From positions 1 to 64,000 of the forward strand of contig NZ_LXYI01000029.1 in assembly GCF_001650875.1 (NCBI RefSeq): a DNA stretch of 64,000 nt. Direction: 5' to 3'. This DNA comes from Sulfitobacter sp. EhC04 (lineage in GTDB: Bacteria; Pseudomonadota; Alphaproteobacteria; Rhodobacterales; Rhodobacteraceae). The notes under the pieces were generated by a model. That model ran no database searches and was not told where the DNA came from. It saw only the letters and a list, made by a program, of their open reading frames with translations. The position numbers and the translations under genes were made by a program. Shown piece after piece: positions 18,182-50,210 of the stretch. Numbering within the stretch: the first letter of the stretch is position 1; each line of letters opens with the position of its first letter.

Positions 18182-19279
18182 ATGGATAACGAAGATCGTC
18201 GTTTCAAAGTGGTCGGACGCGCGGCGGGCAGCAACCATGCCGGGCGGTTCGAGCGGCACGAAAGGGTGCAGGTCGATGACGGCTGGACGCCGGAAACAGA
18301 CCTGCCGGTGCTGCGCACCCAGACCGCAATCGAGGTGCCGCGCAGCCTGATTTCCTACAACGCCTCGCCGGATCTGCCCTTTGACCGGTCGATCAACCCC
18401 TACCGGGGCTGCGAACATGGCTGCGTCTATTGTTTTGCACGGCCCAGCCACGCCTATCTCGGCCTGTCGCCGGGGCTGGATTTCGAAACCCGGCTGGTGG
18501 CGCGCCCCGATGCGCCCCAGGTGCTCAAGAGGGAGCTGGCCGCCAGATCCTACAAGGTGGCCCCGATTGCCATCGGCACCAATACCGACCCCTATCAGCC
18601 GATCGAACGGGAGCATGAGATCATGCGCGCCTGCCTGCGGGTGCTGTCGGATGCCGGGCATCCGGTGGCCATCGTGACCAAGGGCGCGCTGATCGAGCGC
18701 GACATCGACATTCTGGGCGACATGGCGCGGCGCGGGCTGGTGCGGGTCGGCATCTCGGTGACCACGCTGGACGCAAAACTCAGCCGGTTGATGGAGCCGC
18801 GCGCCCCCGCGCCCCGGCGGCGGTTGCAGGTGATCCGGTCGCTGGCCGGGGCGGGGATTCCGGTGCGGATCATGGCCTCGCCGATGATCCCGGCGCTGAC
18901 CGATCCGGAACTGGAAAACATCCTGCGGGCGGGCAGGGATGCAGGCGCGCGCCATGCAAGCTGGATCATGCTGCGCCTGCCGCGTGAGGTCTCTCCGCTG
19001 GTGCAGGACTGGCTGGCGCAGCATTTCCCGGACCGGGCAGGGCGCATCATGGCGCGCCTGCGCGAGATGCATGGCGGCCGCGAATACGATGCCACCTGGC
19101 ACCGAAGGATGCGCGGCGAGGGACCCTATGCCGAGATGGTGGCGCAGCGGTTCAATGTGGCGGTGAAACGTCTGGGCCTCAAACTGCGCGCCAACCCGAT
19201 GCGCTGCGACCTGTTTCATCCGCCGCACAAGGAAACCGCGCAGATGTCGTTGTTCTACAGCGTCCCGCCTTTAACCTGA
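18182..19279 (+). CDS. PA0069-family radical SAM protein
   Basis: 365 residues, related to the SPL-like/PA0069 radical SAM family. The [4Fe-4S] ligands are Cys77, Cys81 and Cys84 in CEHGCVYC, preceded by SINPYRG. The TIM-barrel core includes IGTNTDPYQPIEREHEIMR, IVTKGALIERD, VGISVTTLD and the C-terminal LRANPMRCDLFHPP. The substrate is unknown. An upstream in-frame extension is unlikely. The last residues (about SVPPLT) and the stop codon lie inside a dispersed palindromic repeat (19256-19355), so the natural C-terminus was probably altered by the repeat. It is divergent from the corrinoid protein gene. Confidence 0.9.
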   Translation: MDNEDRRFKVVGRAAGSNHAGRFERHERVQVDDGWTPETDLPVLRTQTAIEVPRSLISYNASPDLPFDRSINPYRGCEHGCVYCFARPSHAYLGLSPGLDFETRLVARPDAPQVLKRELAARSYKVAPIAIGTNTDPYQPIEREHEIMRACLRVLSDAGHPVAIVTKGALIERDIDILGDMARRGLVRVGISVTTLDAKLSRLMEPRAPAPRRRLQVIRSLAGAGIPVRIMASPMIPALTDPELENILRAGRDAGARHASWIMLRLPREVSPLVQDWLAQHFPDRAGRIMARLREMHGGREYDATWHRRMRGEGPYAEMVAQRFNVAVKRLGLKLRANPMRCDLFHPPHKETAQMSLFYSVPPLT

Positions 19280-19355
19280 AGCATACCCCATCGCCAATGT
19301 CCCGAGAGCGCGCAGCGCGGCAGGGTATTGGCGATTCAAGTTTAAGGCGGGGCGC
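19256..19355. repeat. Dispersed nested palindrome, copy A
   Basis: About 100-bp imperfect palindrome. Outer arms AGCGTCCCGCCTTTAA / TTTAAGGCGGGGCGC enclose inner arms CGCCAAT / ATTGGCG around a GC-rich core. It shares its sequence with copies B (33012-33105) and C (50111-50210). It overlaps the last codons and stop of the radical SAM gene. Confidence 0.9.
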
Positions 19356-19756
19356 AGTAGGGCCTAAAGAGTCCGGCCTGCGCAACACCAAATTGATCGT
19401 CCATGTGCAGTGATAACCGACAAGGGTGGTAAGAGACGACCGGCGCCTTCGGCTTGATACCGGGCCTGGGTGAAAGACCGCAAGGTCCCGCTCACCGAGC
19501 TTTCGCGCGCCTTGCGGCGACGGATCGAATGGAGCCCGTTGTTGCATGAGGCGCTGGCCGCCTCGCTTCATTGCGGAAGGCAGGCGATGGGCCATGAACC
19601 GTCGTAAGCCCCCCATGTCGAAACATGCAAGGGACGGCAGCCCTTGGCTGGCTGTCCCGTGCGCAGCGTTAACGGAATAGAAATGTGTATTAACAATGTG
19701 TTGGGTAACCCATGGGTTACCCGCCTGCCAGTTCTGCCGCCCGGTGGCTGCCGGGG
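19356..19756. other. Intergenic between repeat A and the homocysteine methyltransferase gene
   Basis: No gene supported. It contains an imperfect hairpin at about 19631-19660 (GGGACGGCAGCC / GGCTGGCTGTCCC). A perfect 20-bp palindrome at 19703-19722 (GGGTAACCC-AT-GGGTTACCC) lies 35 nt beyond the stop of the convergent methyltransferase gene. Neither has a clear T-run. Confidence 0.4.
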
Positions 19757-20770
19757 TCAGCCCCTGCGGCGGCCCTTGCGTGGGGCGCGTACCGGGCCCT
19801 GGCCGTCGGTGCCGTCGCTTGCCGAGGAAAAATCACCCAATGTGGCGGCGATCTCTTCCAGTGTCGGGGCGTCGCCCTTGGGCTGGCTGTCCAGTGCCGC
19901 GCGCATGGCCACCAGGTGCTCCGGCATGGTGCCACAGCAGCCGCCGATGATCGTGGCCCCGCAGTTGCGCGCCATCACCGCGTATTTGCCCATCAGTTCC
20001 GGCGTGCCGTCATAGTGGATATGACCGTCGTGATACTTCGGAATACCCGCATTGCCCTTGGAGATGATCGGCAATGTGCCGCCCTTGGCAGCAAAGCCCA
20101 GCACCGTGCGCAAAAGGTCCGATGCCCCGGTGCCGCAATTCGCGCCATAGGCCATGGGCCGGTTGTCCAACCCATGCACCATATCGACCATCGCCTCGGA
20201 GGTGACGCCCATCATGGTCCGGCCCGCCGTGTCGAAACTCATCGTGCCGCACCAGTCCAGACCGGCCAGTGCAAAACCTTCGGCGGCGGCCTTGTATTCT
20301 TCCGGCGCGCTGATCGTTTCCAGCCAGCCGATATCGACCCCACCGGCCTTCAATCCATCGGCGGCCTCGTGAAACATCTCGACGGCCGATGCATGGCTCA
20401 GGGTGCCGACCGGCTCCATGATCTCGCCGGTTGGCCCGACCGAGCCTGCCACGATCACCTTGCGCCCGGCGGTGTCAGCCACCTCGCGCGCCAGTTCGGC
20501 AGAGACGCGGGCCAGCTCATGCACCCGCTTTTCCGCGCCATGCAGTTTCAGGCGCGAGGCATTGGCCCCAAAGCTGTTGGTCAGGAACAGGTCGCTGCCA
20601 CTGTCCACCGCGCCCTTGTACAGCTTGATGATGTTCTGCGGCTCGTCAACATTCCACATCTCGGGCGCGTCGCCAGACATCAGCCCCATGTTGAACAGGT
20701 TGGTCCCGGTGGCCCCGTCGGCCAGCAGAAAGCCTTTTTCGGCCAGAAGATCGGTGAATGGATTTGACAT
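19757..20770 (-). CDS. bmt: Betaine-homocysteine/cobalamin-dependent homocysteine S-methyltransferase family protein
   Basis: 337 residues with the homocysteine S-methyltransferase barrel. Key features are LLADGATGTNLFNMG, LTNSFGANASRL, GSVGPTGEI, GANCGTGASD and the zinc-binding GGCCGTMPEHL near residue 290. It transfers methyl groups to homocysteine from a donor such as glycine betaine or a methylated corrinoid. The donor cannot be read from sequence. The C-terminus is a low-complexity basic tail (PVRAPRKGRRRG). It lies 33 nt after the MprF-like gene on the same strand. In roseobacters this gene type often clusters with the corrinoid protein and DUF1638, both present here. Confidence 0.9.
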   Translation of the reverse strand: MSNPFTDLLAEKGFLLADGATGTNLFNMGLMSGDAPEMWNVDEPQNIIKLYKGAVDSGSDLFLTNSFGANASRLKLHGAEKRVHELARVSAELAREVADTAGRKVIVAGSVGPTGEIMEPVGTLSHASAVEMFHEAADGLKAGGVDIGWLETISAPEEYKAAAEGFALAGLDWCGTMSFDTAGRTMMGVTSEAMVDMVHGLDNRPMAYGANCGTGASDLLRTVLGFAAKGGTLPIISKGNAGIPKYHDGHIHYDGTPELMGKYAVMARNCGATIIGGCCGTMPEHLVAMRAALDSQPKGDAPTLEEIAATLGDFSSASDGTDGQGPVRAPRKGRRRG

Positions 20771-20803
20771 CAGCTATACTCCGCGCGTGGTCCTTTGCCT
20801 ATT

Positions 20804-22678
20804 TCACGCAGCCCGCCTTGGGGCAAGTTCATATTCTTCATCACCTTCATGAACCTCAAACCGGGTGCCCGGCGCCGGGTCTGGCGGATGGTGGACTTCG
20901 CGTGCGATATCGGCAAGGCAAAGCGCCAGCGCGATGCGGCTCGGTGCCGCGACATAGCGGGGCGACCAGCGCGGGGCGAAGCCGGATTTGAACTGCCGCA
21001 GCCCCGCCGCTCCGGTCCGCGCCAGCAGACGCGCGCGCAGTGGGGCCGACAGGCGATGTTTCAGCGCCGGTATATCCGGCACGGCAGCCAGGCTGAACCC
21101 GGTCCTGCCCGCCGCACGACCCGCCTCCAGCGCGGCGGTTACCAGCGCCTGCATCGTGCCGTCCGGGGCATCTGCCGACAGGCGCATCAGGTCCAGCGCC
21201 ATGTCCCGCGCGCCCGCGTGAAAGGTGGCAAACCCGATCAGCCTCTCGCCGTGCCAGGCCAGAAAAACCTGCTGACCCGCGATGTAGTCGGGGCAGTACC
21301 GCCCCATGGTGCCGCCGCGTGCCGGGCCGTTCCGGCGCTGCCAGCAGGCATCAACTGCGGCCATCCGGGACAGCGGCAATGGCGTGGCGGGCATCACCCG
21401 CACCCCGGATTTTTCCGCCTGACGCAGCTTGCGGCGCAATCCTCTGCGGGCCGGTTGGTCCAGATCAAAGGTCTGCGGGTTCAGCAATGCCTCCTCAGCG
21501 ATGCGCAGGACCTGCCAGCCCTGCGACCGGGCAAATGCCGCCTCCCGTGCGGTGCATTTGTAAAGACAGGCCAGCCGGTTCTCCCACCGCGCGTGGCCCC
21601 GCAAGGCGGTCAGGGCGGCGGGCGTGGTCAGCGGTGCGGCGCCGGGCAGCACAACCAGCGCCTGACCACTGCGCCAAAGCGCCATTGCACTGCCGCCAAG
21701 CTGTTCCACCTGGCCACCGTTCTGCCGCAACAGACCCAGTTCCGCGCGCCCTTCGCCATGGGGGATTGGCGCGGGCGGTGCCGGAACCTTCAGCGACAGG
21801 GGCCGGATCAGGGCCAGCGCGCCAATCACCGCAGGCAGCGCGTAATACAGTGCGCGGTATCCCATGATCGCAGCAATCAGCGCCGCATCCGGGACAGCAG
21901 GCAGCAGGCTGAGCAGGACCAGCTCAAACGGGCCAACCCCACCCGGCGCGCCCGACAGCAGCCCGGCACCAAAGGCCAGCAGGAACACCGGCAGGAAGAG
22001 GGCGAAGCCGACTGTGCCTGCCGGGACCAGCAGGTAAAGCACCAGCGCCGCTGCCAGCATGTCCAAAGCGGCCCAAAGCACGATGGCACCCTGGGCCCGC
22101 AGCGTCGGCAGGCTGGGCCACCACCGCGCCAGACGCAGGCGCGGGCCAAAGGCCAGCAGACCGGAACAAAGCGGCAGCAGGGGCAGCGCGATGGCGGCAG
22201 GCAATATGGTCCGGCCCGGCGCGGGCAGGACGGTGCAGGCCAGCGCGGTGATCCAGAGCCAGGCGGCCAGAAAACTGAGCGAGACAAAGACCGACAGTTG
22301 CAACGCGCGCCCGACCCCCAGACCGGGCAGCAGGCGATGGCGCACCAGCGCGCCGGTGACCACCCCAAAGCCGAGGGTCTGGGCCAGTGCAATGGCGATC
22401 ACGCCACTGCGCCGGGCGACCGCTGGCGGCACCCCGGTGCCGAAATGGCGGTGCGACAACCCGTCGTATCGTCCCATGGCCCAGAAGCTGACCGCGACAC
22501 AGCCAAGTGCCAGAAAGATGTTGAACCCGCCGCCAGTCAGGCTGGCGGGCAGGGCGGTGGGCATGTTTTGGCCGACCTGCTGATGGACCAGCCACAGACA
22601 GCCCGCCGTGAGGGCCAAAGGCCCCAGAAAACGCGCGCCCCGCGCCAGATGCCGCGATGCGGCTGCGATATTTGCCAT
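20804..22678 (-). CDS. MprF-like protein: flippase-type membrane domain fused to DUF2156 aminoacyltransferase-like domain
   Basis: 624 residues. The N-terminal ~320 residues hold about eight transmembrane helices, with the LSGAPGGVGPFELVLLSLLP signature of LPG-synthase flippases. The C-terminal ~290 residues are a GNAT-like DUF2156 domain (LLRQNGG..., RRGLRRKLRQAEKSG, FATFHAG, DLMRLSADAPDGTMQALV). MprF proteins add Lys or Ala from aminoacyl-tRNA to phosphatidylglycerol and flip the product, giving resistance to cationic peptides. Aminoacyl specificity is not predictable. The overall length is shorter than Gram-positive MprF (~840). Confidence 0.88.
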   Translation of the reverse strand: MANIAAASRHLARGARFLGPLALTAGCLWLVHQQVGQNMPTALPASLTGGGFNIFLALGCVAVSFWAMGRYDGLSHRHFGTGVPPAVARRSGVIAIALAQTLGFGVVTGALVRHRLLPGLGVGRALQLSVFVSLSFLAAWLWITALACTVLPAPGRTILPAAIALPLLPLCSGLLAFGPRLRLARWWPSLPTLRAQGAIVLWAALDMLAAALVLYLLVPAGTVGFALFLPVFLLAFGAGLLSGAPGGVGPFELVLLSLLPAVPDAALIAAIMGYRALYYALPAVIGALALIRPLSLKVPAPPAPIPHGEGRAELGLLRQNGGQVEQLGGSAMALWRSGQALVVLPGAAPLTTPAALTALRGHARWENRLACLYKCTAREAAFARSQGWQVLRIAEEALLNPQTFDLDQPARRGLRRKLRQAEKSGVRVMPATPLPLSRMAAVDACWQRRNGPARGGTMGRYCPDYIAGQQVFLAWHGERLIGFATFHAGARDMALDLMRLSADAPDGTMQALVTAALEAGRAAGRTGFSLAAVPDIPALKHRLSAPLRARLLARTGAAGLRQFKSGFAPRWSPRYVAAPSRIALALCLADIAREVHHPPDPAPGTRFEVHEGDEEYELAPRRAA

Positions 22679-22762
22679 GGTTTGCTGTCCCCCGTATCAC
22701 CCATGCGCAGCGACAATAGGGGGCGGGAGCGGTCAAAAGGTTAAGCTGTGGCCATGAAACGC

Positions 22763-22797
22763 AAAAACGCGCCTTCCATTTGAATGAAAGACGCGTT
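22763..22797 (-). terminator. Intrinsic terminator downstream of the DUF1476 gene
   Basis: On the minus strand a ~15-bp stem (AACGCGTCTTTCATT / AATGGAAGGCGCGTT, with G-U pairs) is followed by TTTTTG, about 55 nt past the DUF1476 stop. Confidence 0.8.
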
Positions 22798-22852
22798 GAA
22801 TTGTTGCGGAAGGCGGGCCTTTGCGGAGGCCCTTCGCGCCGGGTCTCAGATC

Positions 22853-23170
22853 TCAGTCGATCTCGCTCAGGATCTGGGCCTTTGCCTCGGTCATCAGGGC
22901 GGACATCTTGGCGCGGATCGTGGCCTCATCCGCCTTGTCGCCCAGATCGCCCGAGACCTTGCGAAAGACGTCTTCGTCGCCCGCTTCCTCGAAATCCGAC
23001 TTGATCACCTCACGGGCATATTCCGTTGCCGCATCGCCGGTCTTGCCCAGCAGGTCGGCAGCCCAGAGACCCAGCAGCTTGTTGCGCCGCGCCTCGGCCT
23101 TGAACTGCATTTCAGCGTCATGGGCGTATTTGTTCTCAAAGGCGTTCTCGCGGTCTTTCATCGTGGTCAT
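22853..23170 (-). CDS. DUF1476 protein, F1Fo-ATP synthase zeta inhibitor subunit family
   Basis: 105 residues. DUF1476 includes the alphaproteobacterial zeta subunit that inhibits rotation of the F1-ATPase, first described in Paracoccus. Typical features are [31 protein letters not shown] at the N-terminus (the inhibitory helix), then a four-helix bundle with [21 protein letters not shown]. The length fits the family (~104-108). GGGAG is 8 nt before the ATG. It is divergent from purC. Confidence 0.93.
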
Positions 23171-24105: not shown

Positions 24106-24136
24106 GGCGGGCGGGACAGAGGCGGGCGGGGCGCTT

Positions 24137-24158: not shown

Positions 24159-24172
24159 CGAGGGGACGCGCC

Positions 24173-27342: not shown

Positions 27343-28677
27343 ATGGCACAGGCAATGAAGATCGCGATTGTCGATGACGAACAGGACATGCGGCAGTCCA
27401 TCAGCCAGTGGCTGGCGCTGTCGGGATATGACACGGAGACTTTCGGGTCGGCCGAGGATGCGCTGAAAAAGCTGGGGCCGGATTACCCCGGTATCGTGAT
27501 TTCGGACATCAAGATGCCCGGCATGGACGGCATGCAGTTCCTGAAAAAGCTGATGGGCAATGACAGCGCCTTGCCGGTGATCATGATCACCGGGCACGGT
27601 GATGTGCCGATGGCGGTGGAGGCGATGCGGGTGGGGGCCTTCGATTTCCTGGAGAAACCCTTCAACCCGGACCGGATGAACGAACTGGCCAAGAAGGCCA
27701 CGCTGGCGCGGCGGCTGGTGATGGACAACCGCGCATTGCGGCGTGAACTCTCTGACGGCGGCCAGCTGATGAAAAAGCTGATCGGCCAGAGCCCGGTGAT
27801 GGAGCGTCTGCGCGAGGATATCCTCGATCTGGGGCAGGCCGATGGCCATGTGCTGATCGACGGGGAAACCGGCACGGGCAAGACCTTGGTGGCCCATGCG
27901 CTGCATGCGGTGGGCAGCCGGGCGGGCAAGAAATTCGTGCTGGTCAGCTGCGGCGCGCTGGAGGAAGACGCGCTGAGCAAGCGTCTGTTCGGCCCGATGC
28001 TGCCCGAGGACACGCAACTGCCCGCCATCGAAGAGGCGCGCGGCGGCACCTTGGTGCTGGAGGACGTGGAGGCGTTGTCAGAAACCCTGCAGGCGCGTTT
28101 GCTGAGTGTGATCAACGAACAGGGCACGCCCGCCGAGACCCGGATCGTGGCGATCTCGAATCTGCAGGAAGCGGGGCGCACCTCGGAAGATGCGCTGCGT
28201 TCGGATCTGTTCTACCGCCTTGCGGCGCTGCGCATCACCGTGCCGCCGCTGCGCCAGCGGGGAGAGGATATCCTGACGCTGTTCACCCGGCTGTCGGATC
28301 AGTTCGCCGATGAATACGGCTGTGACGCGCCGCAGGTCAGCGCGCAGGAGGCCGCACAGCTGTTGCAGGCCCCCTGGCCGGGCAATGTGCGCCAGTTGAT
28401 CAATGTGGCCGAGCGCGCGGTGCTGCAATCGCGGCGCGGATCGGGGACCATCGCATCGCTGCTGATGTCCGATCACGACGAGATGCAGCCGGTGATGACC
28501 ACCGAAGGCAAGCCGCTGAAGGAATATGTGGAAGCCTTCGAGCGGATGCTGATCGACAACACGATGCGCCGCCACAAAGGGTCCATTGCCAGTGTGATGG
28601 ACGAGCTTTGCCTGCCCCGGCGGACCCTGAACGAGAAGATGGCCAAATACGGGCTGCAACGCTCGGATTACCTGTAG
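27343..28677 (+). CDS. dctD: DctD-family response regulator lacking the sigma54-contact motif
   Basis: 444 residues. The receiver domain has phospho-acceptor Asp55 (ISDIKMPGMDG) and Lys106 (EKPFNPD). The AAA+ domain has Walker A GETGTGKT at 174-181, followed by a C-terminal Fis-type HTH (GSIASVMDELCLPRRTLNEKM). The GAFTGA loop that contacts sigma54 is missing: after LFG (215-217) the sequence goes PMLPEDTQLPAIEEARGGTL. Walker B reads LVLED instead of LFLDE. It may act on sigma70-type promoters, as described for Rhodobacter NtrC, but that is inference. It partners with the DctB-like kinase just upstream. Confidence 0.9.
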   Translation: MAQAMKIAIVDDEQDMRQSISQWLALSGYDTETFGSAEDALKKLGPDYPGIVISDIKMPGMDGMQFLKKLMGNDSALPVIMITGHGDVPMAVEAMRVGAFDFLEKPFNPDRMNELAKKATLARRLVMDNRALRRELSDGGQLMKKLIGQSPVMERLREDILDLGQADGHVLIDGETGTGKTLVAHALHAVGSRAGKKFVLVSCGALEEDALSKRLFGPMLPEDTQLPAIEEARGGTLVLEDVEALSETLQARLLSVINEQGTPAETRIVAISNLQEAGRTSEDALRSDLFYRLAALRITVPPLRQRGEDILTLFTRLSDQFADEYGCDAPQVSAQEAAQLLQAPWPGNVRQLINVAERAVLQSRRGSGTIASLLMSDHDEMQPVMTTEGKPLKEYVEAFERMLIDNTMRRHKGSIASVMDELCLPRRTLNEKMAKYGLQRSDYL

Positions 28678-28823
28678 AGCATCGGATATGCGGGATCAGC
28701 AGATTAGAGGCCGGACGCCTTGAACCCGTTGATGCTGGCGCGGTGGCGGAGGTCATGCGCGCCGTCACAGTTGCTGTTTTTCGCGATAGCGCTCTGCAAT
28801 TCTCTGCCCGATGCGGTCTCATG

Positions 28824-28871
28824 ACCCTCCCGTGGAGACATGTCAAAAATGACATGTCTTCACGGGAGGGT
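28824..28871. repeat. Long hairpin with GACATGTC core
   Basis: 22-bp arms (28824-28845 and 28850-28871) matching at 21 of 22 positions around an AAAA loop. Both arms contain GACATGTC. It lies about 150 nt beyond dctD. No T-run follows. Confidence 0.85.
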
Positions 28872-29094
28872 GTGAACTGCCCGGGCGAATGAGCGGGTGC
28901 ATGCAGGTCGCAGGAAAACGGCCAGAGCGGCAGCATTGTGACCCAGTCCCGTGTTTTGGCAAGAGATCGGCATGTATGCTGAATGCCGGAGGGCTTTGGC
29001 CATCGCGTCATAGCCTGACCCAGTTTGAATACCGGATCTTTGCCAGATTGCAGCCACGGGCGGGAACCGGCGGATTACCTTTGATCCAAACGCA

Positions 29095-29465: not shown

Positions 29466-30024
29466 GGCAGGTCCTTTGGTATCAAGGCGGCCAGCGGGGG
29501 GCCGCAAAATGCATATTGGCGCGTGCACCGTGCAGCCGGTTTGCGCGCAGGGACTGTCCCCAAGCGGGTGCTTGTTGTCAAGCTTTGCCCCGTTTTGAAC
29601 CGCATTCGATGTGAACCGGAACGATTGCCCATTGTCATTTGTCCCCCAAACCTCTTAACTGGTAACAGGGGGGATTGCGGCTTCAATGCAGCAATCCGAC
29701 ACCCCGCAAACAGTTTCGCTGTTGACGCGCGCCCCACCGGGACCGCCTGAACAGACCGATTGGGCCGGAAACGGCCAAAGAACCGCTGACGGTCCGGGCA
29801 ATGCCCCCTGAAAAACCGCAGTACAATAATGGGTATGGCCGCCTTCGGGGGGATACATATCGGAGAAGAAACGCGATGACGCGCGCGAGTGCCAAGAGCA
29901 GACGATCAGAGGCCGGTATCGGCCCCGTTTTTGCGCCGTCCCCCATCGCCCTGACAAGTCTCATCACGCAGCCTTTGGCCCCCCCTGGGAGGACAGTGGC
30001 GCGCGTGCTGTGCAAAGTGGATTT
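29466..30024. other. Long upstream region of rne
   Basis: About 560 bp with no supported gene. Long 5' leaders are usual for rne, where RNase E autoregulates its own mRNA in E. coli, so part of this may be a leader. A weak C-run/G-run hairpin sits near 29643-29673. The long minus-strand open frame across here and rne is a codon-bias shadow. Confidence 0.4.
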
Positions 30025-32976
30025 ATGCCTAAGAAAATGCTTATCGATGCCACCCACGCGGAAGAAACCCGTGTTGTGGTCGTGGACGGAAACAAGGTTG
30101 AAGAGTTCGATTTCGAATCCGAAAACAAACGCCAGCTTGCTGGCAACATCTATCTCGCCAAGGTAACACGGGTCGAACCGTCGCTTCAGGCGGCGTTCAT
30201 CGACTATGGCGGCAACCGTCACGGTTTCCTCGCCTTTTCCGAGATTCATCCGGATTACTACCAGATCCCAGTTGCCGACCGTCAGGCGCTGCTGGAAGAG
30301 GAACGCGCCTATGCCGAGGCCCAGGCGGCCCGCGAGGAAGAGGAAGACAAGCCCAAGCGGTCGTCTTCGCGCTCGCGGTCGCGCAGCCGGTCGAGTTCCA
30401 AGGCAGCGGATGTCACAACCCAGGATGCCACCACATCCGGCGATATCAACGGGATGGAAACGGTCGATCTGACCGAGGACGACGAGGTCGAGGTCAGCGA
30501 TGACGAGGCTTCCTCTCCGATGGAGCGGGTCAGCGAGACACCTGTTGAAACACCTGCCGTTGACGAGGACGACCAGGACGACGACGGCAACAGCGACACC
30601 TCCGACGATGATGGCGATGACAACAGCGGCGATGCCTCGGACAAGGACGACAGTATCGAATCCGTCGCCGACGAGGACGACAGTGAAGACATCCGCCCGG
30701 CGCGCAAGCCCCGGCCCAAGCGCTACAAGATCCAGGAAGTCATCAAGGTGCGTCAGATCCTGCTGGTGCAGGTCGTCAAGGAAGAGCGTGGCAACAAGGG
30801 TGCGGCGCTGACCACCTATCTGTCGCTGGCGGGCCGCTATTGCGTGCTGATGCCCAACACCGCCCGTGGCGGCGGCATTTCGCGCAAGATCACCAATGCG
30901 GCGGACCGCAAGAAGCTGAAAGAGATCGCAAACGAGATCAAGGTGCCGCAGGGCGCCGGGCTGATCGTGCGCACCGCCGGTGCCAAGCGCACAAAGGCCG
31001 AGATCAAGCGCGATTACGAATACCTGCAACGCCTGTGGGAACAGATCCGCGAGCTGACGCTGAAAAGCATGGCACCCGCCAAGATCTATGAGGAAGGCGA
31101 CCTGATCAAACGGTCGATCCGCGACCTTTACAACCGCGACATCGACGAGATCCATGTGGAGGGCGAGCGCGGCTATCGCATCGCCAAGGACTTCATGAAG
31201 ATGATCATGCCGTCCCACGCCAAGAACGTGAAACGCTATGAAGAACGGCTGCCGCTGTTTGCGCGCTATCAGGTGGAAACCTACCTCAGCGGCATGTTCA
31301 ACCCGACGGTGCAGCTGCCTTCGGGGGGCTATATCGTGATCGGCGTGACCGAGGCGCTGGTGGCCATCGACGTGAACTCCGGCCGTGCCACCAAGGAAGG
31401 CTCGATCGAGCAGACTGCGCTCAAGACCAACCTGGAGGCCGCCGACGAGGTGGCGCGCCAGTTGCGTCTGCGTGACCTTGCCGGGCTGATTGTCATCGAC
31501 TTTATCGACATGGACGAGCGCAAGAACAACGCCTCCGTCGAGAAGCGGATGAAAGACAAGCTCAAGACAGACCGCGCGCGCATCCAGATTGGCCGCATTT
31601 CGGGCTTTGGCCTGATGGAGATGTCGCGCCAGCGTCTGCGCCCCGGCATGATCGAGGCGACGACACAGCCCTGTCAGGCCTGCCATGGCACCGGCCTGAT
31701 CCGCAGTGACGACAACCTCGCCTTGTCGATCATCCGCCAGATCGAGGAAGAAGGCACCCGCCGCCGGTCCCGCGAGGTGCTGATCAAGGCACCGGTGGCG
31801 ATCGCGAACTTTCTGATGAACCAGAAGCGCGAACATGTGGCGCAATGCGAGGCGCGTTATGGCATGTCCGTGCGCATCGAGGGGGATCCGCATCTGATCA
31901 GCCCCGAATTCAGCATGGAAAAGTTCAAGACCGCGACCCGCGTCGTGCCGCCGACCAACCATGTGGTGTCGGTTGACACTTCGCTGATGGACAAGATCGA
32001 CGAGGATGATGCCGCCGCGGCGGAAGAGGCCGACCGCGCCGAAGAAGACGCCGGTGAGGCGGCTGAGGAGCGGGATGGCCAAAGCCAGGCCAGCGGGTCG
32101 TCCTCCAACGGGTCGTCCTCCAACGGGTCGTCATCCAGCGGGTCCTCCTCTGAGGGTGAGGGCAAGCCCAAGCGGCGCCGCAGGCGTCGGCGGAGCCGGT
32201 CCAAGAGCAAATCGAACGGTGATTATCAGGGCGGCGATCAATCCTCCGACAACGCGGAGTCGGGTGACGACGATCAGAAGTCTGATGACGATGCCGGCAA
32301 GGTAGCGGCGAAGTCCGCATCCAATGAGGCTGCCGAAACCGCCGGGGAACCTGCGGCCGAGGAGGCAAAGGCAAAAGACGATCCGGCTGCGGCGGAGACC
32401 AAGAAAAAGCCGTCGACCCGGAGCCGGTCGCGCAGCACATCTGCCAAGGCGAAAGCCGAGGCTGCGGCGGACGCGGATGCCACGTCATCGGCACCTGCTG
32501 AAGCGGCAGAAGCTGCGGATGCCGAGGCTGCGCCCAAGCCCAAGTCGAAGCCGAAATCGACCCGGTCCCGCAGCACGTCCAAGGCCAAGTCAGCGCCAGC
32601 GGCGGAAGAAACCGCCACGGATGCGCCTGCCACGGATGCGCCTGCCAAGGAAACGACGGCCAAGGCTACGGCGGCCAAGCCGAAAACGACCCGCAGCCGG
32701 GCCAAACCAAAGCCCAAGGCTGATCCAAAGGCGGAGGCGCCGGCAGCATCTGCCGAAGGTGCCGCCAAGGTCGAGGACACCGCGCCGGACCCTGTGGTCG
32801 CGGAACAGGCAGAGGACAAGCCAAGCGCCGCCCCGGCGAAACAGGCGGCGGCACCCAGCGTGACGGCAACGCCCGAGCCGGAGGCGGCCAAGCCCGAGCC
32901 CGCGCCAGAGGCGGCACCGGAAGAGGTTGCCGAGAAAAAGCCGAAGAAACGCGGCTGGTGGTCCCTGGGCGGCTGA
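30025..32976 (+). CDS. rne: Ribonuclease E
   Basis: About 983 residues, the essential endoribonuclease and degradosome scaffold. The S1 domain starts at the N-terminus and is split by an acidic insert at ~104-222 (runs of D/E/S). The catalytic core follows, including GGYIVIGVTEALVAIDVNSG and LIVIDFIDM (catalytic Asp residues) and the zinc-link Cys pair in PCQACHGTG. The non-catalytic C-terminal ~330 residues are low-complexity: a Ser-rich run, a basic RRRRRRRSRSKSK patch (likely RNA binding) and long A/K/P/E repeats, ending KKRGWWSLGG. Start ATG 30025 (MPKKMLIDATHAEETRVVVVDG) fits the family. An upstream GTG at 30010 is unlikely. Confidence 0.96.
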   Translation: MPKKMLIDATHAEETRVVVVDGNKVEEFDFESENKRQLAGNIYLAKVTRVEPSLQAAFIDYGGNRHGFLAFSEIHPDYYQIPVADRQALLEEERAYAEAQAAREEEEDKPKRSSSRSRSRSRSSSKAADVTTQDATTSGDINGMETVDLTEDDEVEVSDDEASSPMERVSETPVETPAVDEDDQDDDGNSDTSDDDGDDNSGDASDKDDSIESVADEDDSEDIRPARKPRPKRYKIQEVIKVRQILLVQVVKEERGNKGAALTTYLSLAGRYCVLMPNTARGGGISRKITNAADRKKLKEIANEIKVPQGAGLIVRTAGAKRTKAEIKRDYEYLQRLWEQIRELTLKSMAPAKIYEEGDLIKRSIRDLYNRDIDEIHVEGERGYRIAKDFMKMIMPSHAKNVKRYEERLPLFARYQVETYLSGMFNPTVQLPSGGYIVIGVTEALVAIDVNSGRATKEGSIEQTALKTNLEAADEVARQLRLRDLAGLIVIDFIDMDERKNNASVEKRMKDKLKTDRARIQIGRISGFGLMEMSRQRLRPGMIEATTQPCQACHGTGLIRSDDNLALSIIRQIEEEGTRRRSREVLIKAPVAIANFLMNQKREHVAQCEARYGMSVRIEGDPHLISPEFSMEKFKTATRVVPPTNHVVSVDTSLMDKIDEDDAAAAEEADRAEEDAGEAAEERDGQSQASGSSSNGSSSNGSSSSGSSSEGEGKPKRRRRRRRSRSKSKSNGDYQGGDQSSDNAESGDDDQKSDDDAGKVAAKSASNEAAETAGEPAAEEAKAKDDPAAAETKKKPSTRSRSRSTSAKAKAEAAADADATSSAPAEAAEAADAEAAPKPKSKPKSTRSRSTSKAKSAPAAEETATDAPATDAPAKETTAKATAAKPKTTRSRAKPKPKADPKAEAPAASAEGAAKVEDTAPDPVVAEQAEDKPSAAPAKQAAAPSVTATPEPEAAKPEPAPEAAPEEVAEKKPKKRGWWSLGG

Positions 32977-32992: not shown

Positions 32993-33013
32993 GATGAACG
33001 TCCACAGGCCCTA
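32993..33013. repeat. Half-copy of the MITE-like terminal repeat
   Basis: 21 bp identical to the terminal inverted repeat of the element at 59987-60257 (GATGAACGTCCACAGGCCCTA). It directly abuts palindrome copy B. Only one end is present. Confidence 0.7.
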
Positions 33014-33105
33014 CAGCGTCCCGCCTTTAACCTGATACACTCCGTATCGCCGATGTAGCGCGAAGCGCGGCAGGGTATCGGCGATTCAAGTTTAAGGCGG
33101 GGCGC
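33012..33105. repeat. Dispersed nested palindrome, copy B
   Basis: Same outer arms as copy A (AGCGTCCCGCCTTTAA / TTTAAGGCGGGGCGC) with inner CGCCGAT / ATCGGCG arms. It lies between convergent rne and tusA, and its right arm forms one half of the terminator at 33092-33124. Confidence 0.9.
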
Positions 33106-33124
33106 TTTAGCGCCCCGCCTTTTG
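33092..33124 (+). terminator. Intrinsic terminator built from a repeat arm
   Basis: Perfect stem AAGGCGGGGCGC / GCGCCCCGCCTT with TTTA loop and a following TTTT run, placed at the end of the rne transcript and abutting the convergent tusA stop at 33125. The left arm of the stem is the right arm of palindrome copy B. Confidence 0.85.
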
Positions 33125-33352
33125 CTATCCGCCCTTGCGCACGAGATAGACCTGGGCTGCGCCCTCTTCCTGTGTTTCCACCAGGGTGTGACCCGCCTCG
33201 GCGCAGAAATGCGGCACATCCACGATGGCGGCGGGATCATCCGCGCGCATCGCGATGCAATCGCCCGGTGACAATGCAGCCAGACGTTTGCGCAGTTTCA
33301 GCACGGGCAGGGGGCAGAGCAGCCCGATGGCGTCGAGGTCTTGTGTGATCAT
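33125..33352 (-). CDS. TusA family sulfur carrier protein
   Basis: 75 residues with the sulfurtransferase signature LDAIGLLCPLPVLKLRKRL, in which Cys13 of the CPxP motif carries the persulfide. TusA homologues relay sulfur for tRNA thiolation, molybdenum cofactor or sulfur oxidation. The specific pathway here is unknown. It is convergent with rne and divergent from ccdA, with an ~90-nt promoter region. The neighbouring ccdA gene is also linked to thiol chemistry. Confidence 0.92.
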   Translation of the reverse strand: MITQDLDAIGLLCPLPVLKLRKRLAALSPGDCIAMRADDPAAIVDVPHFCAEAGHTLVETQEEGAAQVYLVRKGG

Positions 33353-44699: not shown

Positions 44700-44757
44700 C
44701 GGCTTCTCGTTGCTTGTTCGATGACGCCAATGTTGCAATTTGGAGGGTTATCTACGA

Positions 44758-44773
44758 TTGTCACAAATGACAA
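44758..44773. promoter_or_regulatory. Putative operator TTGTCA-N4-TGACAA
   Basis: Perfect 6-bp inverted repeat with a CAAA spacer between the divergent hydrolase and GlxA-type regulator, followed by two direct TGACAAAAG repeats at the regulator start. The position fits autoregulation or control of the hydrolase. No experimental basis. Confidence 0.45.
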
Positions 44774-44787
44774 AAAGAGGTTCAAAA

Positions 44788-45756
44788 GTGACAAAAGTGA
44801 CAAAAGACTGGATCTGCGAGATCGGTCTGTTGATTTACCCCGACTGCCAATTGTCCGCGATTTACGGCCTGACCGATCTGTTCCGGATTGCGGGCGAGTG
44901 GGCAGATAGCGACAACCCGCGACAGGTTCGGGTCACCCATTGGCGCGCCGAGGAAGGTGGGGAGCTCATTTGCGTCTGGGATACCCATCCGAACAAGACC
45001 CATCATTTGGATTACGTTATCACGCCGCCCAGCATCGTCATGCCGGACAAGATGCAGCCCATGCCACAAGAGGCTGCGTGGCTTCGGTCGCAACACAAAG
45101 AGGGCAGCCGCGTTTGCTCGATCTGTGCAGGTGCGTTCGTTCTTGCCGAAAGCGGATTGCTGCAAGGCCGACGGGTGACAACGCACTGGGCTTTCGCCAA
45201 ACACCTTGCACAAAGCTACCAAGATATTGAAGTTGCCGACAGAAATCTGGTGCTGGACGATGGCGACGTGATTTCAGCGGGCGGTATCCTTGCCTGGACC
45301 GATCTTGGCCTGACCCTTGTCGAGCGTCTCTTTGGACGGAGCACGATGCTGTCGACGGCCCGATTTCTGGTCATTCAGCCGCCGCGGGCCACGCAGCTTC
45401 CCTTCACCGAGTTTATCCCGGTGTTCGATCATGGAGACGCGGCGATCCTGCGGGTCCAGCACCATATCCACGCTGATTTGACTGCATCTCTGAACCTCAA
45501 CGATCTCTCCGATGTTGCCCGTCTGGGAAGGCGAACCTTCATGCGCCGTTTTGCCAAAGCGACTTCGCTCAACCCCACCGAGTACATTCAACAGGCGCGT
45601 GTTGCCAAAGCCCGAGGTGTTCTGGAACTGACCAACCGTCCCTTGGATCAGGTCGCGTGGGAGGTCGGGTACAAGGACCCTTCTGCCTTCAGCAAAATTT
45701 TCCAGCGTATCTCCGGAGTTTCAGTCTCAGCGTATCGGCACCAATTTGGTGTCTAA
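44788..45756 (+). CDS. GlxA-type transcriptional regulator (DJ-1/PfpI + AraC HTH)
   Basis: About 322 residues. The N-terminal ~180 residues form a DJ-1/PfpI amidotransferase-like domain (IGLLIYPDCQLSAIYGLTDLF; VCSICAGAFVLAESGLLQGRRVTTHW). The C-terminus has the AraC HTH pair (LNDLSDVARLGRRTFMRRFAKATSLNPTEYIQQARV; GYKDPSAFSKIFQRISGVSVSAYR). I prefer GTG 44788, 7 nt after GAGG, to ATG 44767, which lies inside the TTGTCA palindrome. It is divergent from the haloperoxidase-like gene, its probable target. The stop abuts palindromic element D. Confidence 0.9.
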   Translation: MTKVTKDWICEIGLLIYPDCQLSAIYGLTDLFRIAGEWADSDNPRQVRVTHWRAEEGGELICVWDTHPNKTHHLDYVITPPSIVMPDKMQPMPQEAAWLRSQHKEGSRVCSICAGAFVLAESGLLQGRRVTTHWAFAKHLAQSYQDIEVADRNLVLDDGDVISAGGILAWTDLGLTLVERLFGRSTMLSTARFLVIQPPRATQLPFTEFIPVFDHGDAAILRVQHHIHADLTASLNLNDLSDVARLGRRTFMRRFAKATSLNPTEYIQQARVAKARGVLELTNRPLDQVAWEVGYKDPSAFSKIFQRISGVSVSAYRHQFGV

Positions 45757-45855
45757 AGCGTCCGGCCTTTAAACTGAGGCATCGCACATCACTTTTCGCG
45801 CCCCGCCGCAGGCGAAGGCAGCGAACAAGTGTTTCATGTTCAAGGCCGGACGCTC
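45757..45855. repeat. Dispersed nested palindrome, variant copy D
   Basis: Outer arms AGCGTCCGGCCTTTAAAC / GTTCAAGGCCGGACGCT, inner arms TTCGC/GCGAA and CACTT/AAGTG. The left arm and following GAGGCAT resemble copies A and C, but the core differs. It begins at the base after the regulator's stop codon. Confidence 0.8.
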
Positions 45856-46022
45856 TGGCCAAGGCTACCGTAGGCGTCAGTCAGGACAAGAAGCAGACCT
45901 TGGCGCAACCGCAGCGAATTGGCGCTTTGTCCTGCACGCCGGTCCTTGACCCATACCGCGCCGAAGGCCCGGTTTGGGTCGGAAATGCTTGACGATTGGG
46001 TCAGAATGAATGCGTCCAGAGC

Positions 46023-48113
46023 CTATGCAACCATGTTGTGCCGTTCTTCCTGGGTTTCGGCATTTTCCCCAGGCTCTCGCGGCAGGCGCATGACAAAGGT
46101 GCTGCCCTGACCCGTGACGCTGCTGGCGGTCAGCGTGCCGCCGTGCATTTCGGCGATATCGCGCGAAATGGCGAGGCCAAGGCCTGTGCCGCCGAATTGC
46201 CGGGTCGAGGTGGCATCGACCTGGTGAAACGCCTCGAATACCCGGCTGACCTGGTCTTCGGGGATGCCGATGCCGGTATCGGTGACGCTGAATTCCACCA
46301 CGTTGTCGTTCATGACCACATCCAGCTTGATGCTGCCCGTTTGCGTGAACTTTGCCGCGTTGCCGACCAGATTGATCAGCACCTGACGGACCCGGTTGGC
46401 ATCGGCATAGAGGTTTCCGGGGTCGACGGACACCTCGAATGCCAGGCCTTTTTCCTCGACCATGGGGCGCATCTGGTCTGCGACCGGACCAACGATGTCA
46501 TTTATATCGTAATGTGTCGGCTGGATTGCCTGGCTGCCGGATTCAAGCTTGGCGAAATCAAGGATTTCGCTGATCAGCGACAGCAGATGCTCACCCGACC
46601 GCTCCAGCCGGGTCATCATGCTGACGATCTGCCCGGTGAGCGATTTCAGTTGCGGCTCGATCTCTTTTGCGACTTCGGGATGGGCCTTGAGAGCCTCATT
46701 CAACGCCAGGGCAGGCGGCAGGCGGTCTACATTGCGGGCAAGGCGGGCGTGGCCCAGGATCACGGTCAGGGGGGTGCGCAATTCATGGCTCAGCACGCCC
46801 ATGAAATCGGTCTTGGCCTTGTTGGCGGCCTCTGCCGCCTGCTGCGCGCGTTTCAGGTCGGTGACGTCGATGCGCAGGCCCACGACGCTGCCATCCTCCA
46901 TCAGGCGGTCGGATGTCTGCATGATGCGCCCGTCCGGCAAGATCTGTTCAGGGTCCGAGGAGCCGTCCAGCGGGCGGTTGCGCCATTCCTCAAGCCACTC
47001 TTGCTCGCGCCCGACCGCGCTGCGGATGACCCCCTTGTTCAGGCTGGATTTGACGATGTCCTCGTAATGTACCCCGATTTTCACAACCGAGGAGGGGCCG
47101 TGCATTTCGGCGTATTTCTGGTTCATCGCAATCAGCCTGCCTTCGGGGTCGAACATCACAAAGCCATGGTGAAGTGCCTCGATGCCGTTTGTCAGCCTGC
47201 TTTCGGCCTCCCGCCGGGTGTCGGCCAGCCGCAGGACGTAAAACAGGCCGATTGCAACCAGCGAGATAAAGATGAGGCGCAGGCTCCATTGCCACATGAA
47301 TTGGGGGCGGCGCAGGGGCCAGCCGTCTGCCGGTGTGGCGGCCAATTCCCAAACGCCCATGGGAATGTTCAGTGTCATCACAACCGGGTCCCGGCTGAGC
47401 GCTGCGACGTCACCCAGCAACACATGGGCCACCGGGCCATCGCCAACGCGCCTTTCGCGCAGCACGATATCGTATTTTTCCGACAGGTTCGCGCTGCTGA
47501 TGCTATCAACGAATGAATCGTAATCCAGCACAACGGAAAGCAGGCCCCACGGCTCCCTCTTGCCGTCGCGCATGGTAAAGACCGGCTGTCTGAGGATCAG
47601 CCCGCGTCCGCCCTGCAACAGATCGACTGGCCCGTCGATCTGGCCGTTCCCGGTGCGCATGGCTTCGGCGACCTTCGGGAATTGCAGCGGGTTGGTGCGA
47701 TAATCCAGCCCCAATACCCTTTCATTGCCGGTCTTGGGGAACACCATTGTGACAACAAGGTCAGGCGCTGCGGCGATGTTGATGACATCATTGTTTTCAA
47801 GCAGGAAATCGACCGCCTTGATGTTGAATTCGGTCTGGTTCATGTCGGGATTCTGAGACAGGGCCGCGGCAATTTCGTTCATCCGCAGGACGCGGTTGAC
47901 CATCTCTGACTCGAATTTTTCGCGGATGGCGGACAGTTCGATCGTGGTGTTCAGTCGCAGGCTCTGCAGATAGGTTTGATAAGACAGGCTCTCGATCTTC
48001 CTGCCGAACGCGATGATGACGCCGCAGACAATTGCAATCAGAACAACGCGCGTCATCCAGAGATGCAGTGAACGCTGTGGTGTGGGGCGGATTCCCGTCT
48101 GGCGGCTCACCAT
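46023..48113 (-). CDS. Membrane sensor histidine kinase with CHASE-like sensor and PAS domain
   Basis: 696 residues. TM1 is at ~20-36. A periplasmic CHASE-type domain spans ~50-285 (LGLDYRTNPLQFPKVAEAM, ILRQPVFTM, GLLSVVLDYDSFVDSI), TM2 is at ~289-305, and a PAS-like domain follows (GIEALHHGFVMFDPEGRLIAMNQKYAEM). HisKA has its His at about 440 (FMGVLSHELRTPLTVILGH). HATPase_c shows NLVGNAAKFTQTG, DTGIGIPEDQ and GGTGLGLAIS. It has no receiver domain and no response-regulator neighbour, so it is an orphan here. The ligand is unknown. Confidence 0.9.
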   Translation of the reverse strand: MVSRQTGIRPTPQRSLHLWMTRVVLIAIVCGVIIAFGRKIESLSYQTYLQSLRLNTTIELSAIREKFESEMVNRVLRMNEIAAALSQNPDMNQTEFNIKAVDFLLENNDVINIAAAPDLVVTMVFPKTGNERVLGLDYRTNPLQFPKVAEAMRTGNGQIDGPVDLLQGGRGLILRQPVFTMRDGKREPWGLLSVVLDYDSFVDSISSANLSEKYDIVLRERRVGDGPVAHVLLGDVAALSRDPVVMTLNIPMGVWELAATPADGWPLRRPQFMWQWSLRLIFISLVAIGLFYVLRLADTRREAESRLTNGIEALHHGFVMFDPEGRLIAMNQKYAEMHGPSSVVKIGVHYEDIVKSSLNKGVIRSAVGREQEWLEEWRNRPLDGSSDPEQILPDGRIMQTSDRLMEDGSVVGLRIDVTDLKRAQQAAEAANKAKTDFMGVLSHELRTPLTVILGHARLARNVDRLPPALALNEALKAHPEVAKEIEPQLKSLTGQIVSMMTRLERSGEHLLSLISEILDFAKLESGSQAIQPTHYDINDIVGPVADQMRPMVEEKGLAFEVSVDPGNLYADANRVRQVLINLVGNAAKFTQTGSIKLDVVMNDNVVEFSVTDTGIGIPEDQVSRVFEAFHQVDATSTRQFGGTGLGLAISRDIAEMHGGTLTASSVTGQGSTFVMRLPREPGENAETQEERHNMVA

Positions 48114-48309
48114 ATCTCGGCCTAACTTTCTGTCTTGTGTCGCTCTGTCTTTGTCGCTCGAACCACCTACACAAACATTCCTCTAGATTCGGAAAAAATC
48201 ATGACCAAGTCACTGATTTTTCAATCTAACGGGGAAATTCTGGCGCAGTGTGACCCGATCACATCAACTATAACAGAGCACGAAACGGCGAGATATGCGT
48301 TGGATTGTG

Positions 48310-48650
48310 CGATATTGCGGAAGATGAAAGTGCAGGCTTCTGTTGCCAGGTGCCTGCGAACCCCGCCTTAAGTCGCTAAACCCAAGGACTTAGATTTCAG
48401 TCTCTCCGGTCGCTTACGCGGCCATTGCTACTGGAGCACTATTGTCATTTGCAATTGTACTTTTTACGCCGATAACGGTGGCAGTCAGCCGAGACAAAGC
48501 AAAACCCCTTTAGACGTTCGTCGATCCTGTTTCGACCCCATGATCCCCAAATGAAGGATGTTGGTGGAGTCGCCGGGTACCGCCCCCGGGTCCGATCCGC
48601 TTATTACGAGCGCGTTTATGTCCATAGTTCCGAAGAACAAGCCAGATATA
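48310..48650 (-). ncRNA. ssrA: Circularly permuted two-piece tmRNA
   Basis: Minus-strand tmRNA in the alphaproteobacterial permuted order. The acceptor piece comes first (about 48650-48562), with T-arm CCGGGGGCGGTACCCGG and end CGACTCC-ACCA. A 22-nt spacer (48540-48561) follows. The coding piece starts at 48539 with GGGGTCGAAACAGGATCGACG. Its GGGGTCG pairs with CGACTCC of the acceptor piece, one G-T. The resume codon GCA and tag ANDNSAPVAMAA then TAA occupy 48452-48414, ending in the MAA-type C-terminus recognised by ClpXP. Downstream pseudoknot-like stems include CAGGC/GCCTG near 48330-48355. The outer ends are estimates. It rescues stalled ribosomes, and SspB is encoded at 40.6-41.0 kb. Confidence 0.93.
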
Positions 48651-48700
48651 GGCCAAGGGGCCGGGATTTTCAATCGTCTACGTGATGAAATCGACCGAAA

Positions 48701-49762
48701 TCACAGCAACCCGCCTGCGCCCCAGGCCAGCCCCAGCACGATGGCCGCGGCAGAGAGTGCTGCCGCATATCCGATCAGTTTCAGCCTTGAGAACGGGCGT
48801 TCGCCATAGGTGCGCCCGTCGATGCCGGACACGACCACCTTCATCGGTTTGCCGCCATAGCTGTAATGGGCGATCCAGACCGGCAACAGGATGCGGCGGT
48901 AGTGGATGCCGGTTGTGTCGGTCTGATAGCGAATGCCGTGCACACCGGATCTGTCGATATGGCGCTTGATCCGGTTGCGGATCAGCAGCTTCTTGTCCGG
49001 CGCATTGGCGGACAGCCCCTGTGCCACGCTTTGATGGTGCCGTTCTGCGGCAAAGCCCGCCAGATATGCCGCGCGGTAGGGTCTGAGTGCTGCGGGATCG
49101 AAGTCATGCAGGATGCCGTCGCGGATCAGGGGGGTGACATGCGCAGAGGCGGGCATCAGCAGATCGTCGAAGGTGATGGTCATGCTGCCCGAAGTGCGAT
49201 GCGTCCGCCGCCGATCGCCCGAGCCGGTGGTGTATTTCGCCCAGTATCGCAGGGCCTCATGGCTGTCGAAGGTCCAGAACGGCGCGTAAAGCCCGGCCAG
49301 CCGTGCGTCCTCCAGCAGGGCGGGCAGGTCGCGCGGGGCGGCCAGACGCCTGGCCACCCAGGCGCGCATCTGGCGGCGGGCAAAGCCGGGATCGGTCTGA
49401 AAGGGGATCAGTGCCTTGGTGCGATAGCCGGCATCCGCAGGGCCCAGCACCACCGGGCCATTGCAATAGGGGCATTGTTCGGAAAGCGCTGCACCCACAA
49501 AGAGCACCGCACCGCCGCAGTTGCGGCATTGATAGGTGCGTTCCCGGGTCAACTCGGGCAGATCGTTCTCTGCTGCATCCGGTTCATAGGCGAATTCCTG
49601 CGCCGCATCGGCATCATGGATTGTCTCAAGCGCGTAGAGCCTGCCGCAGCTGCTGCATTCCAGTTTGCCCTGCAACGGCGAAAAGACGCAGTGCCCGCCG
49701 CAACTGGCGCAGGACAGGGCCGCCTGATCCGCCACAACCTGATCCGTCACGTCATGGGGCAT
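48701..49762 (-). CDS. Zinc-ribbon protein with C-terminal membrane helix
   Basis: 353 residues. Two zinc ribbons lie at the N-terminus: CASCGGHC...CSSCG (residues ~18-42) and CRNCGG...CPYCNG (~77-100). A large soluble domain (~115-320) follows, with RYWAKYTTGSGDRRRTHRTSGSM, FDDLLMPAS and ILLPVWIAHYSYGGKPMKVVVSGIDGRTYGERP, then one transmembrane helix (LIGYAAALSAAAIVLGLAWGAG). This resembles the TFIIB-type zinc-ribbon, PriA-like proteins of unknown function. It overlaps the preceding small membrane protein gene by one base. Function unknown. Confidence 0.8.
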   Translation of the reverse strand: MPHDVTDQVVADQAALSCASCGGHCVFSPLQGKLECSSCGRLYALETIHDADAAQEFAYEPDAAENDLPELTRERTYQCRNCGGAVLFVGAALSEQCPYCNGPVVLGPADAGYRTKALIPFQTDPGFARRQMRAWVARRLAAPRDLPALLEDARLAGLYAPFWTFDSHEALRYWAKYTTGSGDRRRTHRTSGSMTITFDDLLMPASAHVTPLIRDGILHDFDPAALRPYRAAYLAGFAAERHHQSVAQGLSANAPDKKLLIRNRIKRHIDRSGVHGIRYQTDTTGIHYRRILLPVWIAHYSYGGKPMKVVVSGIDGRTYGERPFSRLKLIGYAAALSAAAIVLGLAWGAGGLL

Positions 49763-50076
49763 CAGTCATTGTCCCCAAGGGCGGCGGCGATTTCCAGCAG
49801 GATGCGCAGCCGCAGCCAGGATCGGTCGATGGCCCCTGACAGATCACCCGTCACATGCCAGTCGCCGATGATGGTGGCGAAAAACCATGTGGCCATCAGC
49901 CAGAAGGCAATCACCGCCCAGCCGGAGATGGACCGGATGCGCCCGGCGGAACCGGGGCGCAATTCGTGGCGCGCCTCGTAGACCCGGATCAGCTTGACCA
50001 CCGGGCGGATGCCGATGGCGGTGGACAGCGCCAGCAGGGCAAGGGTGGCAAGCAGGGGGGCAAGGGACAAATACAT
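49762..50076 (-). CDS. Small membrane protein, partner of the zinc-ribbon gene
   Basis: 104 residues with two transmembrane helices (LAPLLATLALLALSTAIGI and ISGWAVIAFWLMATWFFATII) separated by a basic loop. Its stop overlaps the start of the zinc-ribbon gene by one base, so the two are probably an operon, with a shared membrane-linked role as inference. I do not recognise the family. Confidence 0.7.
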   Translation of the reverse strand: MYLSLAPLLATLALLALSTAIGIRPVVKLIRVYEARHELRPGSAGRIRSISGWAVIAFWLMATWFFATIIGDWHVTGDLSGAIDRSWLRLRILLEIAAALGDND

Positions 50077-50110
50077 CGGTAAGCCTGTTGTGACGGGACA
50101 GACCCAAGGT

Positions 50111-50210
50111 TACAGCGTCCCGCCTTTAAACAGAAGCATATCACTTCGCCAATGTCCCGAGAGCGCGCAGCGCGGCAGGGTATTGGCGTATCAAGTTTAA
50201 GGCGGGGCGC
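50111..50210. repeat. Dispersed nested palindrome, copy C
   Basis: Outer arms AGCGTCCCGCCTTTAAAC / TTTAAGGCGGGGCGC, with a core nearly identical to copy A (CGCCAATGTCCCGAGAGCGC / CAGGGTATTGGCG). It lies between the start of the small membrane protein gene and the rplM promoter. Confidence 0.9.

Follow-up and report, generated by a model that had tools for sequence, protein, structure and literature searches.

What kind of element are the nested palindromes of about 100 bp found near gene ends in Sulfitobacter sp. EhC04, and why do they sit where they do? Four of them, copies A to D, lie in the 64,000-nucleotide stretch examined here (positions 1 to 64,000 of contig NZ_LXYI01000029.1, referred to as the window). 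The original prediction, made from the letters of the window, left two options, an element resembling repetitive extragenic palindromes or bacterial interspersed mosaic elements (REP/BIME) and a non-autonomous mobile sequence. We conclude, with a probability of roughly 0.92, that the palindromes are miniature inverted-repeat transposable elements (MITEs) of the IS630 (Tc1/mariner) type. This reading is based on the repeat itself, its ends, the TA at its boundaries, its YTAR target (Y, pyrimidine; R, purine), ends shared with insertion sequences (ISs) of the IS630 family, empty sites, and an excess of insertions at stop codons.

All four copies were found at the positions and with the arms originally predicted, and they are members of a real genome-wide repeat family. 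Alignment places copies A (19256–19359, 104 bp including a TA at each end, 19256–19257 and 19358–19359), B (33012–33109, 98 bp with a 6-bp internal deletion) and C (50111–50214, 104 bp) in one sub-family, F1 (TACAGCGTCCCGCCTTTAACCTGA...), and copy D (45754–45857, 104 bp) in a second with the same layout, F2 (TAAAGCGTCCGGCCTTTAACCTGA...); all four are given on the plus strand, and the right TA of both C and D now reads TG. D had been called a variant, and its arms do differ, but it is no loose variant: its sub-family, a sister of F1, has at least 10 copies of its own. The arm pattern GCGTCCSGCCTTTAA, searched with a tolerance of 3 mismatches, was matched 11 times in the window against 3.5 expected, a number reached in none of 100 shuffles, and its exact form occurs 39 times in the 4.85-Mb genome, where the reversed control gave 0. 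With copy A as the query, at least 43 places were located in the own genome after scoring of 40 of 104 candidates, and copy D returned 11 near full-length copies and a third group, named F3 below, with D's core but other arms. In the fetched stretches of the own genome we read 65 full-length copies in 64 distinct contexts, consisting of 46 F1, 10 F2 and 9 F3 (TACAGCGTTTCGGGATAAACTTGA...) elements, so the repeat is not confined to the window; beside F1 and F2 there are at least two further sub-families or arm types.

Together, 120 unique hits gave 109 full-length copies, and the 98 of these with a score above 90 were used for logos. The matches to the covariance model, 132 rows in the own genome (G000) and 119 in the closest relative (G077), include places listed once for each strand, and these rows were not taken as copy numbers. 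The elements read are 97–107 bp long (104 bp in 98 of the 109 full copies), carry no transposase gene, have ends reading TANAGCG, and have a GC content of 57% compared to 62% for the window. Ten F1 copies of the own genome have identical 96-base cores. No match to A–D at gathering scores was found among the 4227 families of Rfam, and six loci with F1, F2, F3, G018 and G010 copies gave one sub-threshold match (E 0.47) located outside the element. At L002 (~1434–1640), an F1 copy interrupts a palindromic element with ends TATAGCGTTTCGCGTTAAACCTGAATC / TACAGCGTTTCGCGTTTACCTTGAG, which is a further arm type.

The boundaries of the copies point to insertion at TA. Among 98 copies, TA is found at the left end in 82 and at the right end in 68, and where it is present at both ends a Y precedes and an R follows the element in 48 of 57, compared to 91 of the 973 TA sites in the window. 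Several adjoining copies share exactly one 2-bp TA (C31:25045/25147 in the own genome; three in a row at C28:8542–8855 and two pairs on C29 in G077), as would result from insertion of one element at the end of its neighbour. A 100-kb part of G077 aligns with the window, and all five copies identified on the own 89-kb contig are absent from this relative. The site of copy C is empty in G077 and reads CTAG, the G077 gene at the site of copy A ends with TAG (left junction only), and at the site of copy E (C29:84021) the same TA is occupied in G077 by another inverted-repeat element (TTAGGCTCTGGACCC...), giving a TA at the orthologous site in three of four comparisons. There is no element in G077 at copy B, where the alignment is poor, and the region of copy D is missing. 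Conversely, an F3 copy of G077 is lacking at the orthologous site of the own genome. Two loci, L019 of the own genome and L066 of strain DFL-14, have matching flanks and are both occupied, so some insertions look older than the species split. Three other empty-site matches (L005, L016 and L026) lie in paralogous repeats, show TT or TG at the position of the TA, and were set aside for judging TA, because paralogous copies need never have had one. The copies at C29:84021 (L026), L008 and L146 lie in a like short sequence, GGGAATATTTA/RGGCCAAAAAG or close to it, which looks like a separate dispersed repeat. Palindromes at gene ends could also be fixed intrinsic terminators or an immobile host repeat, but such an account is refuted by the empty sites by which species differ and is opposed by the tandems with a common TA, the identical copies, and the IS-type ends described below, leaving it next to no probability.

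To find possible partners, we collected IS630-family elements of the genus with NF033545, to which 49 of 62 genomes had some match and 13 a match above the cut-off. Several ISs of about 1055 bp with the same kind of ends were identified (L159, TAAAGCGTCCCGCCCGAAACCTGAAT / TAAAGCGTCCCGCCTTTAACCTGCGA; also L160, L179–L183, L158 and L186); other IS copies, including L161, L184 and L185, lack matching ends. Over the 28 bp following the TA, the F1 left end shares 24 positions with the right IS end of L159, and the F1 right end shares 23 with its left end. Among the TA sites of the window (971 on the plus and 973 on the minus strand), the chance maximum was 18 of 28, exceeded only by element ends. 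Nine of the ten ends of five element groups fit best in a consistent orientation (MITE left to IS right), the match being strong for F1, F2 left and G010 left, and the outer arms of the sub-families vary in concert, as do the two ends of the ~1-kb IS. The IS transposases carry DDE_3 (2e-32 in L160 and 3e-28 in L159, the latter split over two frames across a run of A). Of four named plasmid copies opened, three bear the annotation "IS630 family transposase". TA flanks both ends in 11 of the 12 distinct ISs that carry such ends, preceded by a Y in 10 and followed by an R in all 11. An F1-like element and an IS whose ends match it occur together on plasmid pSMR1-1 of Pseudosulfitobacter pseudonitzschiae SMR1. 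Taken with the TA boundaries, the empty sites in the relative and the identical copies, these ends give good support to the suggestion of a non-autonomous mobile sequence.

The alternative in the original prediction, a REP/BIME-type element spread by a REP-associated tyrosine transposase (RAYT, Y1 family), did not hold up. The elements are palindromic, mostly extragenic and present in many copies, and the own genome, where alone Y1 was sought, has one Y1_Tnp match, but this match stands by itself, with no element in the 3.3 kb fetched around it. A REP unit is short with a conserved tetranucleotide head, whereas the element is ~104 bp with TANAGCG ends that match an IS630-family DDE element, TA boundaries and a YTAR target. 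We therefore consider a REP/BIME origin very improbable.

Several observations weigh against an IS630-type MITE. Only 57 of the 98 copies have kept the TA on both sides, and the empty F3 site in the own genome reads AA instead of TA (one of the four comparable orthologous sites). The F2 right end best fits the wrong IS end, and matches are weaker for F3 (19/28 on each side), G018 right (19), and F2 right and G010 right (20 each). No intact IS of this clade was seen in the own draft genome, the element-rich genomes G018 and G077 have no match to the IS protein at E 0.001, and an apparently intact IS is present in G023 and G025, genomes without an element match. Furthermore, no transposition event was observed. 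The own genome, G018 and G077 are drafts of 89, ~20 and ~50 contigs, respectively, and drafts easily lose repeated ISs. A search with the IS protein returned matches in 18 of 62 genomes; those of the own genome are partial, covering 131 residues at C49 and 41 residues at C8. The IS630-like genes of the own genome at C49, C50 and C22 were rejected as the partner, as no matching ends were found at their loci, and looking for a DDE_3 gene in G077, G018 and G010 gave one match, a 119-codon frame in G077 with no matching ends. At C49 (L051, ~1456–2669), a DDE_3 fragment is bounded by an inverted pair, TAACGTGACAACACCC, and the adjacent frame is transposase-like by eye.

If the elements are indeed IS630-type MITEs, an IS630-family transposase would recognise their ends of ~22–28 bp in trans, excise the element and insert it into the TA of YTAR with duplication of the TA, presumably by cut-and-paste. 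Each MITE would retain both ends of the ~1055-bp IS, the MITE left end corresponding to the IS right end and the reverse, with the transposase gene between them lost. GC-rich coding sequence contains few YTAR sites, and TAG and TAA match this target, which would direct insertions to intergenic sequence and to stop codons. The ends mostly rebuild TAA or TAG at stop codons, and such insertions would then cost little.

The gene context of the insertions was examined for 97 of the 109 copies, taken from stretches of the own genome and G077 in which they are flanked on either side by 500 bp or more. The element was removed in silico and genes were called by codon usage with a home-made caller that had been trained on the window, not a standard annotator. 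Insertion points fell in a stop codon 29 times, between convergent genes 25 times, between co-directional genes 26 times, between divergent genes 7 times, within genes 9 times, and at an edge once. Stop codons make up 36 of 306 YTAR sites (11.8%) in the same flanks and 25 of 267 in two long contigs, so 29 of 97 is an excess against either background (p 6e-5 and 4e-6, respectively). Convergent sites are also more frequent than among the YTAR sites of the two contigs (41/267, p 0.03). Since YTAR sites are rare inside genes (38/267, with 229/267 outside gene interiors in the two contigs), the intergenic bias needs little selection, and the share of elements inside genes is similar (p 0.29). The caller placed 83 of the 159 YTAR sites of the G077 contig between divergent genes and thus probably misses genes there.

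At the 29 stop-codon sites the end of the element rebuilds an immediate TAA or TAG in 23. The right end of F1 faces the gene in 17 of 22 cases (p 0.017) and gives TAA in 16 of the 17, and TAA or TAG also results from the F2 copies, five left-facing and one right-facing, and from the single F3 copy. The five left-facing F1 copies, A included, are all predicted to extend the protein by YSVPPLT. Copy A was said to overlap a stop codon, which it does, but more has happened there: its first TA lies where G077 has the native TAG, and the PA0069-family radical SAM gene (17987–19279) now reads YSVPPLT and ends at a TGA (19277–19279) inside the element. Copy A is the one case where the native stop was observed in a relative. 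Copy D was believed to start at the base after a stop codon; instead, its first TA plus the following A forms the stop codon TAA (45754–45756) of an AraC-type gene (44740–45756).

It is possible, though we hold it only tentatively, that the ends of this family are adapted to stop codons, with YTAR targeting and a terminal TAA or TAG together making a self-repairing landing site where near-neutral 3′ additions accumulate. The F1 left end (TAC) would have lost this property, be under-represented facing genes, and tag proteins with YSVPPLT. If this were true, and the arm types tracked different IS lineages, the genetic code itself would supply the transposon with a safe haven.

Regardless of how the elements arrived, their fold could matter to the host. 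All seven copies folded gave z-scores from −4.5 to −7.9, and the compensatory changes in the arms that were looked for are present among copies. In 54 copies from four genomes, 90.7% of pairing cells can pair compared to 83.5% in shuffles, the covariation score is 0.260 versus 0.149, and 15 of 33 pairs have changes on both sides, as many as are reached in 19 of 500 shuffles; the structure tested had been derived from part of the same copies. Arm covariation is no proof of an RNA fold and was set aside as proof of RNA function, since concerted changes occur at both ends of the 1-kb IS as well. The inner helix, where 4 of 11 pairs have double-sided changes, goes beyond end recognition, and either selection on the fold or hairpin-templated correction may account for it. 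At copy B, the right arm and the adjoining GCGCCCCGCCTT form a terminator-like, perfect 12-bp hairpin with a strong fold (33094–33121, plus strand) followed by TT. The terminator scan listed no plus-strand terminator at copy B, and by eye G077 has a different, shorter inverted repeat at this locus.

Alternatively, the elements may have originated as MITEs but now be retained at gene ends in the role of structured RNA, for 3′ protection, RNase processing or termination, which would maintain the inner stem. The strong folds, the inner-helix changes, the convergent-gene excess and the copy B hairpin are in line with this suggestion. It is at odds with a gene-end bias that mostly follows YTAR placement and with the differing insertion sites of close species, and hairpin-templated correction may likewise maintain the pairing of inverted arms. 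We regard RNA retention as unlikely and have low confidence in any host function of the elements.

The family extends beyond this genome. In a covariance-model survey of 60 genomes, own genome included and with at most 66 candidates scored per genome, matches were found in 15, all of them among the 36 of the genus; the 24 genomes of other families in the class had none. At least 40 matches were found in three of the 15 (own, G010 and G018) and 1 to 4 in the others. G077 was searched later and gave its 119 rows at ~90 distinct places, and a pattern scan of named genomes found matches in Sulfitobacter sp. M05 and DFL-14. Copy A also matches 86 plasmid records, mostly partially, 80 of which are typed as conjugative. 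An element with the same core and other arms is found in Phaeobacter piscinae plasmid pP13_b (L271, ~1166–1270) and at L059 and L060. The pP13_b-type element sits in the plasmid backbone near a partition gene and may be an old copy that became fixed on plasmids.

Copy B lies between an RNase E gene (30010–32976, plus strand) and a short called frame on the opposite strand (33125–33352), and copy C is upstream of the rplM-rpsI genes (50432–51384). A single arm-like match with 1 mismatch at 28704–28718 (minus strand) is a possible remnant of an F2 end and falls within 28676–29056, a stretch that G077 lacks. The window also contains a chrB-a RNA motif (RF03078, 43179–43258, minus strand, 55.5 bits, above the gathering score) and an alphaproteobacterial (permuted) transfer-messenger RNA gene (48329–48677, minus strand).

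Read as IS630-type MITEs, a conspicuous gene-end repeat of Sulfitobacter can be understood as derived from a transposon, with a partner whose kind can be identified, and its clustering at gene ends has a simple account in target composition and stop-codon rebuilding. This is a caution against taking such palindromes for regulators or terminators. Plasmid pSMR1-1, with both element and IS, provides a testable IS630-type MITE pair in a cultured marine strain. We are highly confident in filing the family under a known kind, IS630-type MITEs. We found no description of the family itself in the listed titles and abstract openings on Rhodobacteraceae/Roseobacter repeats, IS630 MITEs and stop-codon insertion, a search that did not extend to ISfinder.

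Among known systems, REP/BIME elements with RAYT are likewise palindromic, extragenic and numerous, but differ in origin, ends and target. MITEPye1 of Paracoccus yeei is short and IS-derived with predicted long stem-loops and is assigned to IS1182, and MITEPsy1 of Pseudomonas syringae is 100 bp, lands at CTAG or YTAA and is tentatively assigned to IS5 (PMC11578231, PMC3189936); both differ from the Sulfitobacter family in IS family and in their few copies, and MITEPsy1 duplicates 4 bp. ISY100 duplicates its TA target and moves by cut-and-paste, and mini-transposons with 30 bp of each end are as effective as the whole IS (PMC2170065). IS630 prefers the TA in CTAG, according to a title in the reference list of the same paper. 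These and other IS630/Tc1-mariner ISs are autonomous, whereas the Sulfitobacter elements lack a transposase. Correia/NEMIS and ERIC elements have inverted repeats, target duplication and 5′-TA-3′ termini (Table 1, PMC2229807) and, compared by description only, share the TA-bounded inverted-repeat layout in other hosts. RUP is 107 bp with 108–110 copies, IS630-Spn1-like ends and a TA target, is over-represented between convergent genes, and has a GC content below that of its genome (PMC3049150, PMC2229807). It differs in its Streptococcus host, and the Sulfitobacter family has several arm sub-families and a partner IS that was not found in the host genome. Judged by description only, RUP is nevertheless the closest described element, being alike in size, IS630-type ends, TA, convergent sites and low GC.

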